Source: Flavobacterium sp. (lineage in GTDB: Bacteria > Bacteroidota > Bacteroidia > Flavobacteriales > Flavobacteriaceae). Taken from it: a stretch of 10,542 bases of DNA. The notes under the pieces were generated by a model, which was not told the origin of the DNA, searched no databases, and was given only the letters and a program-made list of their open reading frames with translations. The stretch lies in assembly GCA_017989775.1 (NCBI GenBank), contig JAGNPF010000021.1, positions 1 to 10,542 on the forward strand, in the 5' to 3' direction. The translations under genes were made by a program, and so were the position numbers. This document shows, piece by piece, positions 5,741 to 9,538 of this stretch (its first letter is position 1; each line of letters starts with the position of its first letter).

Positions 5741-6841
5741 ATGACGGATCAGGATTTATTTCATTTATTGGCCTTGCAACAAGTGGAAGGAGTGGGCGAC
5801 ATCGTGGCCAAAAAACTAATCACGCATTGCGGAAATGCCGAAGCAGTTTTTAAAACAAAAGCTTCCCAACTCGCCAACATCGACGGAATCGGTTCGGTTT
5901 TATTGCAAAAATTGAAAGACAAATCCGTTTTCGAAAAAGCCGAAAAAGAACTGAAATTCATACAATCAAACGAAATCAATGTGGCTTATTTTCAGGATGA
6001 GAATTACCCAGATCGATTAAAGCATTGTATCGATGGCCCGGTCTTGTTGTTTACTTCGGGAAACATCGACCTTAAAAACAAGAAAACCATCAGCATTGTG
6101 GGAACGCGTCAAATCACTTCCTACGGAATGGAATTTTGCCGAAAATTGATTGAAGATTTGGCTCCGCTGGATCCCGTCATCATTAGTGGTTTTGCCTATG
6201 GCGTTGATATTTTTGCGCATCAATTGGCGATGGAACACGATTTGCAAACCATTGGTGTCGTGGCCCACGGCTTGAACCAAATTTACCCCAAAAATCACAA
6301 GAAATACGTGGCCAAAGTGGAGCAAAACGGTGGTTTTATGACCGAATTTTGGAGTTCGTCGAATCCGGAAAAAGAAAATTTTGTTCGCAGAAACCGTATT
6401 GTGGCCGGAATTTCCGAAGCCACGATTGTCATCGAATCAGCCGACAGGGGAGGTTCCTTGATTACAGCCAATATCGCCAACGATTACAACCGTGATGTTT
6501 TTGCCGTTCCCGGTCGAACCACCGACAAATACAGCCAAGGCTGCAACAACCTGATTAAAACCCAAAAAGCAAACCTGCTGACCAGTGCCGCCGATTTGGT
6601 GTATATCCTGAATTGGGACATCGAAAGCAAACCCAAACCAGTCCAAAAACAACTATTCGTTACGCTCGAAAACGACGAGCAAAAAGTGTATGATTACCTT
6701 CTAAAAAACGGAAAAGAATTGATGGATATTATAGCCCTGCAATGTGATTTTCCCATTTACAAAATCTCGGGAATGCTCCTGAATATGGAACTCAAAGGCG
6801 TGATTCGACCCTTGCCGGGGAAATTGTTTGAGGCGATTTAA
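5741..6841 (+). CDS. dprA: DprA, DNA-processing / recombination-mediator protein
   Basis: This is a 366-residue full-length DprA. The N-terminus (about 12-60) has two helix-hairpin-helix-like motifs, VEGVGDIVAKKL and IDGIGSVLLQKL. The Rossmann-fold core (about 80-285) shows ENYPDRL (87-93), SIVGTRQITSYG (118-129), ISGFAYGVDIFAH (148-160), ENFVRRNRIVAGIS (212-225), GGSLITA (237-243), DVFAVPG (252-258) and GCNNLI (267-272). The C-terminal 60 residues fit the winged-helix DprA_WH domain. DprA binds incoming single-stranded DNA and loads RecA during natural transformation. It is also common in bacteria not known to be competent. The ATG at 5741 begins directly at the conserved N-terminus. Downstream, 19 bases separate its stop codon from the first palindromic repeat block, which could act as a 3' hairpin on its mRNA but has no T-run. 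Confidence 0.95.
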   Translation: MTDQDLFHLLALQQVEGVGDIVAKKLITHCGNAEAVFKTKASQLANIDGIGSVLLQKLKDKSVFEKAEKELKFIQSNEINVAYFQDENYPDRLKHCIDGPVLLFTSGNIDLKNKKTISIVGTRQITSYGMEFCRKLIEDLAPLDPVIISGFAYGVDIFAHQLAMEHDLQTIGVVAHGLNQIYPKNHKKYVAKVEQNGGFMTEFWSSSNPEKENFVRRNRIVAGISEATIVIESADRGGSLITANIANDYNRDVFAVPGRTTDKYSQGCNNLIKTQKANLLTSAADLVYILNWDIESKPKPVQKQLFVTLENDEQKVYDYLLKNGKELMDIIALQCDFPIYKISGMLLNMELKGVIRPLPGKLFEAI

Positions 6842-6860: not shown

Positions 6861-6942
6861 TTGAGACGCTTCCAGCGTGACAAATAGCAAGAAAAAGCAA
6901 CAAACGCGCTCTACTCAGTTTGTCACGCTGGAAGCGTCTCAA
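6861..6942. repeat. Palindromic repeat block 1: perfect 24-base inverted repeat, upstream of the GIY-YIG gene
   Basis: The left arm (6861-6884) begins TTGAGACGCTTCCAGCGTGA and ends CAAA. The right arm (6919-6942) is its exact 24-base reverse complement. The spacer is 34 bases. Each arm is also a small hairpin by itself: ACGCT and AGCGT pair around a three-base loop (TCC or GGA). The spacer is not random: AAATAGCAAGAAAAA (6882-6896) and GCAACAAACGCGCTC (6897-6911) reappear in block 2. There is no coding signal in the block. Its origin is probably a small non-autonomous mobile or REP-like element. Confidence 0.9.
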
Positions 6943-6981
6943 ATTACGAGGGCGATAAAAATTGACTTTAAAACCATTTTT

Positions 6982-7290
6982 ATGATAGAATATACGGAAG
7001 GGATTTACAATTTTTATGTTTACATTCTGACCAATAGGAGTAAAACTGTGCTATATACTGGTGTAACAAATGACCTAAAACGGCGTTTGCAGGAGCATAA
7101 AGAAAAAACGAATCCCAATAGTTTTACTGCAAGGTATAATGTTGAATTTTTGGTTTATTATGAACATTTTACTTGGATACAGCTTGCTATTGCCCGTGAG
7201 AAAGAAATTAAAGATTTGAAACGAGACAAAAAAGAAATGTTGATTAATGAGATGAATCCAGATTGGAATTTTTTAAACAATTTATTTTAG
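6982..7290 (+). CDS. Small GIY-YIG nuclease-family protein
   Basis: This is a 102-residue single-domain protein. The ATG at 6982 was chosen because it immediately precedes the GIY-YIG domain. The in-frame upstream GTG at 6877 lies inside a repeat arm and would add 35 low-complexity residues. The two signature strands are YVYIL (12-16, GIY position) and YTGV (25-28, YIG position). They are followed by NDLKRRLQEHK (30-40), which contains the expected Arg and His, then the SFTARYNVEFLVYYE strand (47-61) and a helix with AIAREKEIKDL (69-79) carrying the conserved acidic residues. This is the UPF0213/URI-like branch. Family members cut DNA, some homing-endonuclease relatives sequence-specifically, but the target here is unknown. 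The gene lies between two homologous copies of a palindromic repeat block, 39 bases after one and 1 base before the next. No clear promoter is seen, so read-through from dprA is possible. Confidence 0.85.
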   Translation: MIEYTEGIYNFYVYILTNRSKTVLYTGVTNDLKRRLQEHKEKTNPNSFTARYNVEFLVYYEHFTWIQLAIAREKEIKDLKRDKKEMLINEMNPDWNFLNNLF

Positions 7291-7291
7291 C

Positions 7292-7395
7292 TGGAGACGA
7301 TTCCAGCGATATAAATAGCAAGAAAAATAGGTTGGTAATTTATTGATGAGCAACAAACACGCTCCATTTAGTTTGTCACGCTGGAAGCGTCCCGG
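7292..7395. repeat. Palindromic repeat block 2: degenerate second copy of block 1
   Basis: The left arm (7292-7315) matches the block 1 left arm at 19 of 24 bases. The right arm (7372-7395) matches at 21 of 24. The spacer shares AAATAGCAAGAAAAA (7313-7327) exactly with block 1. It also shares a 22-base stretch (7350-7371) with 6897-6918 at 18 of 22 bases. A 22-base insertion (7328-7349) separates these two parts. The whole block is thus a homologous direct copy of block 1 on the other side of the GIY-YIG gene. It begins one base after that gene's stop codon. Confidence 0.85.
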
Positions 7396-7437
7396 TTATG
7401 TTGCTCAAGTTTGTTGAGACGCTTTCAGCGTGACAAA
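7372..7437. repeat. 66-base hairpin element (arms facing the opposite way to block 1), overlapping block 2
   Basis: The right arm of block 2 (7372-7393) is also the left arm of a second inverted pair. Its partner is 7416-7437, after a 22-base spacer (7394-7415). The pairing keeps 21 of 22 positions if G-U wobble is allowed. The same layout, with the same 22-base spacer length and a similar spacer sequence (GGTTATGTTGCTC here, GATTATGGTGCTC there), occurs at 9359-9424. It lies between the convergent ends of the GIY-YIG gene and trpS and could act as a 3' hairpin for both. It lacks a T-run. Confidence 0.85.
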
Positions 7438-7468
7438 TAGTAAGAATACGTAGTATTCATTTCAGGGA

Positions 7469-8446
7469 TTAGATTGCTTCAAACCCCAATTTTTCTCTTA
7501 CCCTGGCCAAAACCCCACTGGCTACAACCGAAGCTTTTTCGGCACCGATTTTCAATAAAGCATCGACTTCTGCGAGGTTGTTGATGTAGTAATTGTATTT
7601 CTCTCTTTCGGTCTTGAATTTTTCCACAATCAGTTCGAAAAGGGCTTGTTTGGCGTGGCCGTAACCGTAATTGCCAGCCAAATAATTGGCTCTCATTTGT
7701 GCCAATTGTTCTTCATTCGCCAATAAAGAATAGATGGCAAAAGCATTGCAAGTATCTGGATTTTTGGGAGCTTCGAGTGGTGTACTATCCGTTTCGATGC
7801 TCATTATCTGTTTGCGCAAGGCTTTGTCGTTCAAGAAAATATTGATGATATTATTGGCTGATTTGCTCATTTTTCCGCCATTGGTGCCGGGAATCAGCAT
7901 ACTGTCTTCCTGGATTTTGGCTTCAGGAAGCACGAAGGTTTCGCCCATTTGAAAATTGAAACGGGAAGCAACGTCACGCGTGATTTCCAGGTGTTGCAAT
8001 TGGTCTTTTCCAACGGGAACAAATTCGGCATCATACAACAAAATATCGGCCGCCATAAGCATTGGATAGGAAAACAAACCGGCATTGACGTCTTCCAATC
8101 TATCGGCTTTGTCCTTGAAAGAATGCGCCAAAGTCAATCTTTGATAAGGGAAAAAACAACTCAAATACCAGGACAATTCCGCCGTTTGTGCCACATCGGA
8201 CTGGCGGTAAAAAACTACTTTATTCACATCCAAACCACAGGCTAGCCAAGCTGCTGCCGTGCTATAGGTGTTTTCTCTTAATGTTTTTCCGTCTTTTATT
8301 TGGGTAATCGAATGCAAATCGGCGATGAAAAGAAAGGATTCGTTTGCCGGATTATTGGATAATTCGATAGCCGGAATGATTGCGCCAAGTAAGTTTCCTA
8401 AGTGTGGTGTTCCTGTACTTTGAACGCCAGTGAGTATTTTTGCCAT
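7469..8446 (-). CDS. trpS: Tryptophanyl-tRNA synthetase
   Basis: This is a 325-residue class Ic aminoacyl-tRNA synthetase of normal bacterial length. The start GVQSTGTPHLGNLLGAI (7-23) contains the HIGH-type signature as TPHLGN. The KMSKS loop appears exactly as KMSKS at 192-196, preceded by MLIPGTNGG. Also visible are the substrate-pocket segments LFSYPMLMAADILLYDA (124-140) and VPVGKDQLQHLE (143-154), typical of TrpRS, and the C-terminal anticodon-binding helices. It charges tRNA-Trp in the cytoplasm. The ATG at 8446 starts directly at the conserved MAKILTGVQ. The leader carries a repeat arm six bases upstream (8453-8478). The best promoter element is TAAATTTG at 8521-8528. The gene is divergent from plsC. 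Confidence 0.97.
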   Translation of the reverse strand: MAKILTGVQSTGTPHLGNLLGAIIPAIELSNNPANESFLFIADLHSITQIKDGKTLRENTYSTAAAWLACGLDVNKVVFYRQSDVAQTAELSWYLSCFFPYQRLTLAHSFKDKADRLEDVNAGLFSYPMLMAADILLYDAEFVPVGKDQLQHLEITRDVASRFNFQMGETFVLPEAKIQEDSMLIPGTNGGKMSKSANNIINIFLNDKALRKQIMSIETDSTPLEAPKNPDTCNAFAIYSLLANEEQLAQMRANYLAGNYGYGHAKQALFELIVEKFKTEREKYNYYINNLAEVDALLKIGAEKASVVASGVLARVREKLGFEAI

Positions 8447-8572: not shown

Positions 8573-9319
8573 ATGAGAGGAATAAAAATTATTTTTTGGC
8601 TGCTTTGGCGGGTTTGGTTTTACGTTTTGATGGCCATTCCCATCTTGCTGATGCTTCCTTTTTTGGTCTTGTCCATCTTGACCGAAAGTGGTTATCCCTA
8701 TTTCTTTAAAATGGCCAGAATTTGGGCCAGATTCATTCTTTTCGGGATGGGATTTTATTATAAAATCGAAAAGGAACAGGAATTGGATAAAGACAAAAGT
8801 TACATGCTTATTGCCAATCACACTTCGATGATCGATATTATGTTGATGCTGGTCACGGTTAGAAAACCCTTTGTTTTTGTGGGGAAAAAGGAACTAGTCA
8901 AAATTCCTTTGTTTGGATTTTTCTACAAACGAACCTGTATTTTGGTCGATAGATCCAGTTCCAGAAGCAAACACGGCGTTTTTGAACGTGCCCAAAAGCG
9001 AATTGATCAAGGACTCAGCATTTGCATTTTTCCCGAAGGTGGCGTTCCCGATGACGAATCGATACTTTTGGATCATTTTAAGGACGGTGCTTTCCGATTG
9101 GCAATCGAACACCAACTGCCCATTGTCCCGATGACTTTTGGCGACAACAAAGAGCGTTTCTCCTTTACTTTTCATAGTGGAAGCCCCGGTTTGATGCGGG
9201 TAAAAGTGCATTCTTTCATCGAGACGGAAGGAAAAACGATGGCGGAAAAAAATAATTTAAAAGAGCAAGCCTGGAAAGTTATTCACGCCCAATTGCTGGA
9301 GTTTGGGAAGAAAAAATAG
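8573..9319 (+). CDS. plsC: 1-acyl-sn-glycerol-3-phosphate acyltransferase (PlsC family)
   Basis: This is a 248-residue membrane-associated acyltransferase that makes phosphatidic acid from lysophosphatidic acid in phospholipid synthesis. The ATG at 8573 was chosen over longer in-frame starts because MRGIKIIFWLLWRVWFYVLM begins the usual N-terminal membrane helix (about 5-37) and because upstream codons run through the promoter and a repeat arm. Acyltransferase motifs are in order: NHTSMID with catalytic H83 and D88, KIPLFGFFYKRTCILVDR (110-127), FPEGG (153-157), and LPIVPMTFGD (182-191). A second hydrophobic patch precedes motif I (about 52-62). It is divergent from trpS. Its last 16 codons are duplicated in degenerate form 195 bases downstream, on the other side of a palindromic repeat. 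Confidence 0.92.
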   Translation: MRGIKIIFWLLWRVWFYVLMAIPILLMLPFLVLSILTESGYPYFFKMARIWARFILFGMGFYYKIEKEQELDKDKSYMLIANHTSMIDIMLMLVTVRKPFVFVGKKELVKIPLFGFFYKRTCILVDRSSSRSKHGVFERAQKRIDQGLSICIFPEGGVPDDESILLDHFKDGAFRLAIEHQLPIVPMTFGDNKERFSFTFHSGSPGLMRVKVHSFIETEGKTMAEKNNLKEQAWKVIHAQLLEFGKKK

Positions 9320-9358
9320 CTTTTATCCAACCTTTTCGATACCAAATAATTCTTGCTA

Positions 9359-9424
9359 TTTGTCACGCTGGAAGCGTCTCGATTATGGTGCTCTCGTGTG
9401 ATGGGACGCTTCCAACGTGACAAA
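9359..9424. repeat. 66-base hairpin element downstream of plsC
   Basis: The left arm is 9359-9380 and the right arm 9403-9424, with a 22-base spacer. The pairing has one mismatch and one G-U wobble out of 22. The left arm is the same sequence as the right arm of block 1 (6919-6940). The adjacent TCTTGCTATTT (9351-9361) is the reverse complement of the AAATAGCAAGA seen in blocks 1 and 2, so homology extends past the arm. It lies between the convergent ends of plsC and the outer-membrane protein gene. No T-run follows, so any termination role is doubtful. Confidence 0.88.
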
Positions 9425-9466
9425 TGGAATAGGTAGGTTTTGTGTGAAAAAAAAAGAGCCTCACAT

Positions 9467-9511
9467 TGGAAAATTATTCACGCCCAATTGCTGGATTTTG
9501 AGAAGAAATAG
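9467..9511 (+). pseudogene. Degenerate duplicate of the plsC 3' end
   Basis: These 45 bases read as WKIIHAQLLDFEKK followed by TAG. The true plsC end (9272-9319) reads WKVIHAQLLEFGKKK. They differ by three substitutions and one deleted codon. The identical core is 22 bases (9279-9300 and 9474-9495). Similarity continues weakly on both sides: AAAAGAGC before, and TTTCGATACCAA against TTTCGATATCAA after the stops. The copied stretch is therefore roughly 80-90 bases. It has no start codon or upstream coding and is a remnant, either of a lost tandem plsC paralogue or of a local duplication around the repeat at 9359-9424. Confidence 0.75.
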
Positions 9512-9538
9512 TGGCTAAATAAATTATTTCGATATCAA

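Follow-up and report, generated by a model that had tools for sequence, protein, structure and literature searches.

The window analyzed here, a stretch of 10,542 nucleotides from a Flavobacterium-type MAG (2.05 Mb in 399 contigs; completeness, 62.8%), contains a small nuclease gene between the host genes dprA (positions 5741 to 6841, forward strand; PF02481, TIGR00732) on its left and trpS (7469 to 8446, reverse strand) on its right, which are convergent and separated by a gap of 627 bp. The nuclease gene (6982 to 7290, forward strand) is an intact frame of 102 amino acids, with the GIY-YIG domain as its sole domain match (PF01541; E value, 1.9e-16). The motif residues Y14, Y25, R35, H39, E73, and N92 are kept, and across 24 nuclease homologs Y25, G27, R35, H39, E73, and N92 are invariant and Y14 nearly so. 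The motif tyrosines, the arginine, the histidine, and the glutamate have catalytic roles in GIY-YIG enzymes. With these residues intact, the window nuclease is expected, from its family, to nick or cut DNA. The solved structure closest by sequence is 1zg2 (BH0048, UPF0213; E value, 5.5e-5), and weak similarity to the group I intron endonuclease model TIGR01453 falls under the cut-off of that model. One other PF01541 match was found in the incomplete MAG, within a 602-amino-acid open frame that is taken to be uvrC. Neither an Rfam match at the gathering threshold nor a tRNA was detected anywhere in the window.

Architecture and dispersal of the tagged repeats

Palindromic repeats surround the nuclease gene and recur as a solo copy, as a sequence-only reading of this DNA had described, and their arms are 95 to 100% complementary. 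Each arm of 20 to 24 nt forms a small hairpin composed of the tag TTTGTC, a 5-bp stem (ACGCT/AGCGT; first pair A-T, second pair C-G), and the loop GGA, with CTC as the tail; as single-stranded DNA, a 20-nt arm has a predicted fold of -3.9 kcal/mol. Inverted arms are located at 6861 to 6884 and 6919 to 6942 (24 nt, 100% complementarity, spacing of 34 nt), at 7372 to 7391 and 7418 to 7437 (95%, 26 nt), and, in the solo copy, at about 9358 to 9378 and 9405 to 9425 (95%, 26 nt). The blocks on the two sides of the gene had been proposed to be homologous past their arms, and we find them to share the sequence families D1 and D4 (D4, 91% over 43 nt). The third element and the solo copy are 85% identical over 67 nt (family D2).

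The layout of two complete palindromic blocks around the gene needs revision: the repeats are present, but the left arm of the second block (7294 to 7315) is decayed, and the blocks whose tags point inward look like junctions between neighboring elements. By comparison with the solo elements, the nuclease gene lies between an RE-REP end and a REP-LE end, at the place where solo dimers have a short spacer. The upstream end of this nuclease unit (6909 to 6942, forward strand) consists of the outer end RE (about 6909 to 6918) and a REP arm (6919 to 6942) with its tag directed away from the gene. The downstream end (7294 to 7324, forward strand) consists of the decayed REP arm, whose equivalent is intact in F. 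fluvii, and the outer end LE (TAGCAAGAA). The recurrent unit in relatives has the same order of outer end, REP, gene, REP, and outer end, with the tags again directed away from the gene. In addition, an extra half element with a REP arm and an LE is present on the dprA side (6861 to 6893, forward strand), and a second REP dimer (7372 to 7447, forward strand) has two inverted arms separated by a spacer of 26 nt, with an LE-like end (TAGTAAGAAT) after them.

The solo REP dimer (9350 to 9434, reverse strand) spans about 85 bp without a nuclease gene and comprises LE, arm, 26-nt spacer, arm, and RE; as single-stranded DNA it has a predicted fold of -21.7 kcal/mol (z, -7.6). The inner sequence beside the upstream REP of the nuclease unit resembles the solo spacers, which is modest evidence (1 of 500 random 26-mers from the window matches the summed score). 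From this likeness and the position of the gene in place of the spacer, solo dimers may have arisen from the nuclease unit by internal deletion, in the way that MITEs derive from transposons, though the opposite order could also apply.

Across the whole MAG, the 20-nt arm occurs 26 times at up to 3 mismatches, versus 0 occurrences for a reversed-pattern control, and its recurrence is thus not due to chance. We identified 10 distinct two-arm inverted elements, 0 of which are spanned by an open reading frame of at least 100 amino acids. Most of them share outer ends (LE, TAGCAAGAAT; RE, about ATTCTACTCCA, reading inward), and most have a spacer of 24 to 26 nt.

Other repeated sequence was seen in the window and its relatives. 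The solo dimer is enclosed by a 50-nt direct repeat (88%; 9272 to 9321 and 9467 to 9516), in which the 3' end of an acyltransferase gene is duplicated around the dimer; F. fluvii carries neither the dimer nor the 50-nt duplication at this site. In F. cellulosilyticum, a different GTC-tagged palindrome (GTCATTGCGAGGAACG...) is located 3' of the acyltransferase gene, where the window and a further relative (L058) carry the ACGCT dimer, which suggests an insertion hot spot downstream of this gene. A further dispersed Flavobacterium repeat (L003; query positions 921 to 1027) contains CATTAGGGATGG and GTACAGCCCGACC, and eight genomes were searched for it, several of which show partial matches at other places.

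Tagged hairpins beside nuclease homologs

We examined 80 homologous nuclease loci, the best 80 of 488, chosen on protein similarity alone, using a strict detector defined by a GTC tag and a 5-bp stem with A built in as the first stem base. The stem length was chosen after inspection of the observed stems and was afterwards compared across all 64 tags; a detector with a 6-bp stem gave no signal. Of the 80 homologs, 62 have GTC-tagged hairpins at a distance of up to 250 bp from the gene, 46 of them on both sides, and 18 have no strict GTC hairpin in this range. At the Flavobacterium nuclease loci, which overlap with the 80, the counts are 27/29 on any side and 24/29 on both sides, so that other copies of the gene do lie near such repeats, a point that the sequence-only reading had raised. 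The same detector finds hairpins on any side of 3/27 Y1_Tnp genes of the genus and 6/27 dprA genes, and on both sides of 0/27 in either set.

Hairpin density at the 80 loci is 1.10 per 250 bp beside the gene versus 0.088 past 500 bp. GTC ranks first of the 64 tags near these genes with 172 hits, followed by GAG with 86 (median, 15). Furthermore, a perfect 5-bp stem is found at 179 of 427 GTCA sites, compared to 28.5 (standard deviation, 4.8) after stems were swapped between sites, which demonstrates strong hairpin covariation; the pairing stems include ATTCC, ATTCT, ATTGC, ACGCT, ATGCT, ATCCT, ACTCT, and others. These distance, tag, Y1_Tnp, and dprA controls were used in place of a direct-orientation control, which was uninformative (73/110 over threshold versus 86/110 for the inverted orientation) because dimers match in both orientations. 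Among the homologs, one from Allomuricauda taeanensis (approximately 58%) is also located between dprA and trpS, with ATGCT-type hairpins, which reflects either an ancestral location or two separate arrivals there.

Di Nocera 2013 (PMC3733652) describes REPs with the tag CGTC, often TGTC or CCTC, beside a hairpin whose first stem pairs are almost always AT, with a stem of 8 to 9 bp and a CCA tail, and which frequently form inverted dimers. The superfamily includes Neisseria dRS3 and R. conorii RPE-4 and RPE-6, and the hosts named there include A. lipoferum, S. meliloti, N. aromaticivorans, and Neisseria (PMC3733652). According to that paper, CGTC REPs “apparently lack a dedicated transposase” and show no association with transposase genes, and we therefore sought the nuclease in records of named organisms.

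A nuclease homolog was found in 34 such records, and 16 of the 34 were examined. CGTC, TGTC, or CCTC hairpins lie within 350 bp of the nuclease in 15/16 and on both sides in 13/16, with flanked nucleases in A. lipoferum, S. meliloti, Shinella, Rhizobium, Sphingobium, Novosphingobium, Neisseria, Aeromonas, and Planktothrix, among others. The Novosphingobium nuclease is flanked by a perfect 31-nt inverted repeat. In 4 of the 16 (S. meliloti, Sinorhizobium K101, R. tumorigenes, and Novosphingobium), the strict detector returned no hits or hits that looked unrelated, and a wider detector, applied post hoc and with a background of 1 to 15 hits in the rest of each locus of approximately 5.3 kb, recovered CCTC-tagged palindromes or a CGTC stem starting with G; the N. 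aromaticivorans stem begins with G, where the strict detector presets A. Photobacterium is a weak case, since its whole locus is rich in such hairpins: two hits lie downstream of the gene and 13 others in the 4.3 kb around it. The only negative of the 16 is the Radiobacillus homolog, which sits in a housekeeping setting, abutting or overlapping rsmI and a tRNA methyltransferase gene, and has no tagged repeats within 350 bp. Tagged repeats are likewise absent within 350 bp of E. coli yhbQ.

The arms of A. lipoferum and Shinella have 8-bp stems and mostly CCA tails, and those of Neisseria have 8-bp stems with CCG, CTA, or CCA tails; alpha- and betaproteobacterial nuclease loci carry CGTC or CCTC tags. 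In Azospirillum lipoferum 4B, the nuclease and CGTC repeats are located inside the suf cluster, in the sufB-sufC gap, and on plasmid p1 of Planktothrix agardhii, nuclease and repeats have an MmeI-type restriction enzyme gene on one side and DISARM drmA on the other.

Repeat type, nuclease subfamily, and inheritance

The stem sequence follows the nuclease phylogeny. On a tree of 98 nucleases, with 65 rows labelled by stem types seen at least 3 times, we count 15 stem-type changes versus a shuffled mean of 40.1 (0/500 shuffles as low). Without the Flavobacterium-like cluster, 12 changes remain versus 20.5 (33 rows; 0/500 shuffles as low).

Two arm types are enriched in genomes carrying their own nuclease subfamily, defined as a nuclease at least 80% identical, across 299 genomes of the genus with the own genome included; these comparisons are uncorrected for shared ancestry, and nuclease and repeats both appear to be vertically inherited. 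The sequence-only reading had asked whether repeat number goes with the nuclease, and it does for the ACGCT arm, which reaches at least 3 copies in 6/6 genomes with the own nuclease versus 11/293 others, nuclease-flanking arms counted. The ATTCC arm, counted in the same way, reaches this number in 11/11 genomes with its own subfamily, one of which (G066) has a nuclease carrying two stops, versus 31/288 others. Crossed combinations of arm and nuclease do so in 1/11 and 1/6. When arms within 500 bp of the nuclease are removed, 5/6 (ACGCT) and 8/11 (ATTCC) genomes still have at least 3 copies (Fisher P of 1.3e-6 and 5.2e-6, respectively, versus the same uncorrected other genomes), with an average of 6.2 and 9.8 dispersed arms beyond this distance.

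The correspondence has exceptions on both sides. Three genomes with an ATTCC nuclease (G056, G153, and G180) have no arm past 500 bp at up to 1 mismatch, and G234 has a single ACGCT arm beyond 500 bp of its nuclease. The highest ATTCC count of the 299 genomes, 101 arms, is found in G179, whose best nuclease shares 55% identity with that subfamily; 7 and 10 arm copies are found in G084 and G197, respectively, neither of which has a nuclease match at an E value of up to 1e-10. Such arms may have outlasted a lost nuclease gene or be driven by another subfamily.

The nuclease unit does not look freely mobile. The 39 nuclease rows represent 35 distinct loci in 10 chromosomal contexts (single linkage on flank similarity); most members of a subfamily share one context, and the ATTCC type occurs in at least three. 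Several genomes contain 2 to 8 nuclease homologs of different subfamilies. A nuclease mostly held at one locus per subfamily, accompanied by dispersed solo dimers, agrees in layout with the RAYT/REPIN likeness drawn by the sequence-only reading. Broken nuclease copies lie between ATTCC arms in G013 and G066.

At dprA-trpS, the nuclease unit is present in G000, G293, G212, G227, and G234, and at 29 further dprA loci (the best of 79 genomes with a match) no nuclease lies within reach. The dprA-trpS gap was measurable in 21 unit-less relatives, with 16 gaps of 2 to 139 bp and 5 of 281 to 1184 bp, and 20 of the 21 lack a GTC hairpin. The L148 gap (1148 bp) contains two GTC hairpins unlike an arm pair, and the short L154 gap has a REP-like relic only. 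Occupancy also differs at sites of solo dimers: G000 has a dimer at one site where G293 has none, and at a second site both G000 and G293 carry one and G212 and G227 do not. Neither an exact empty site nor a target duplication was resolved at three solo sites, where divergence blurs the boundaries.

Proposed mechanism and relation to known systems

At the level of sequence, the nuclease gene lies between inverted GTC-tagged REPs, the same arrangement recurs in many phyla, the stem tracks the nuclease lineage, and solo dimers are dispersed and extragenic. We consider it probable that this locus represents the enzyme-encoding copy within a REP/REPIN-like system, and that a single-domain GIY-YIG nuclease there replaces the RAYT, recognizes and cuts its own repeats, and allows dimers to spread in trans. 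The nuclease would recognize the GTC tag together with the hairpin of its own repeat type, single-stranded or as a cruciform, and would nick or cut at or near the tag. The dimer would then be copied in trans to new intergenic sites, with solo dimers as the putative nonautonomous products, and the nuclease gene would be largely domesticated and inherited mostly at one locus per subfamily.

The main alternative, which we regard as unlikely, is that the nuclease is a host-domesticated, structure-specific enzyme whose cleavage of REP hairpins or cruciforms, at replication forks for instance, limits repeats that are copied by other means. Inheritance mostly at a fixed locus is consistent with such policing, as are the genomes that have the nuclease and few or no dispersed arms and the strong fold of the two-arm element as single-stranded DNA. 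E. coli YhbQ, which presumably belongs to the same broad group of single-domain GIY-YIG proteins, is annotated as a “DNA damage response nuclease” and points the same way; however, neither yhbQ nor the Radiobacillus homolog has tagged repeats nearby. The flanking of the gene on both sides by its own repeats and the inner sequence common to solo elements and nuclease unit fit a mobile-element origin better.

Less probable still is homing, in which the REP palindromes would be landing sites into which the nuclease gene inserts by cutting, with something else amplifying the repeats. The GIY-YIG fold is a homing-endonuclease fold, the window nuclease shows its subthreshold similarity to TIGR01453, and the gene sits between two half-dimers. 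Against this, subfamily members mostly occupy one chromosomal context though other dimers are often available, and 20/21 unit-less dprA-trpS gaps have no GTC hairpin, with two non-arm-like hairpins in L148 and only a relic in L154. We give very little credence to a fourth explanation, in which repeats moved by a Y1/RAYT or other transposase gather near a small accessory gene to which they have no functional link. REPs are mostly located between unidirectional and convergent genes, as stated in PMC3733652, and Y1_Tnp matches over the cut-off are present in 54/81 genomes of the genus. The incomplete MAG itself has a marginal Y1_Tnp match only (E value, 7.7e-4), however, and hairpins on both sides mark 46/80 and 24/29 nuclease loci versus 0/27 Y1_Tnp and 0/27 dprA genes. 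That stem type tracks nuclease lineage, and that the same source reports CGTC repeats as unassociated with transposase genes, also speaks against such hitchhiking. A RAYT in particular is unlikely as the driver of these repeats because flanking repeats are missing at Y1_Tnp genes.

What would be new here is a REP/REPIN-like system with an unrelated enzyme, a GIY-YIG nuclease. We found no earlier report linking GIY-YIG nucleases to CGTC REPs in the open-licence PMC literature, and a report outside it is possible. Extending this reading to the whole [C/T]GTC REP superfamily, we lean toward the view that its missing dedicated enzymes are single-domain GIY-YIG nucleases. REPIN-type systems would then have evolved a second time independently, with palindromic dimers spread by a nuclease, and no transposase, in groups ranging from Bacteroidota and Cyanobacteria to Rhizobiales and Neisseria. 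CGTC REPs such as Neisseria dRS3 and some Rickettsia elements thereby gain a candidate enzyme of small size with intact catalytic residues, whose action on its own hairpin is open to direct testing, and a role that can be tested follows for many proteins annotated only as “GIY-YIG nuclease family protein.” A spreading role would mean that REPIN-type element populations can be driven by a GIY-YIG enzyme in place of a transposase, and a policing role would make it a nuclease for palindromes that is paired with a particular repeat family. In both cases, the system offers a comparative partner for RAYT/REPIN.

Several known systems share parts of this architecture. GIY-YIG homing and intron endonucleases have the same catalytic domain family and motif residues, whereas here there is no intron, no further domain, and a TIGR01453 match below the cut-off. 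Single-domain proteins of the UPF0213 type (YhbQ, YazA-like) are alike in size and domain and differ in that E. coli yhbQ and the Radiobacillus homolog lack tagged repeats within 350 bp. MITEs are also short, nonautonomous inverted-repeat elements that have their ends in common with an enzyme-coding unit, but no transposase is involved here and no target-site duplication was resolved. The CGTC REPs resemble the repeats described here in the tag next to a hairpin, TGTC in the window, and in the inverted dimers of the MAG, and differ in that the Flavobacterium arm has a 5-bp stem and a CTC tail rather than an 8- to 9-bp stem and a CCA tail.

The RAYT system was reportedly also described by Nunvar in 2010. 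Bertels and Rainey 2011 (PMC3116915) and PMC8049555 describe RAYTs as vertically inherited, single-copy genes that each have a repeat type of their own, a pattern that nuclease inheritance here resembles in part, given the several contexts of the ATTCC type and the genomes with more than one homolog. The likeness to RAYT/REPIN lies in short tagged hairpins that form inverted pairs and are scattered outside genes, in an enzyme gene near its own repeat type, and in distinct enzyme and repeat types existing in parallel. The two differ in their enzyme, a GIY-YIG nuclease (PF01541) here and an HUH/Y1 transposase (PF01797) there, and in their tag, [C/T]GTC here and GTAG there.
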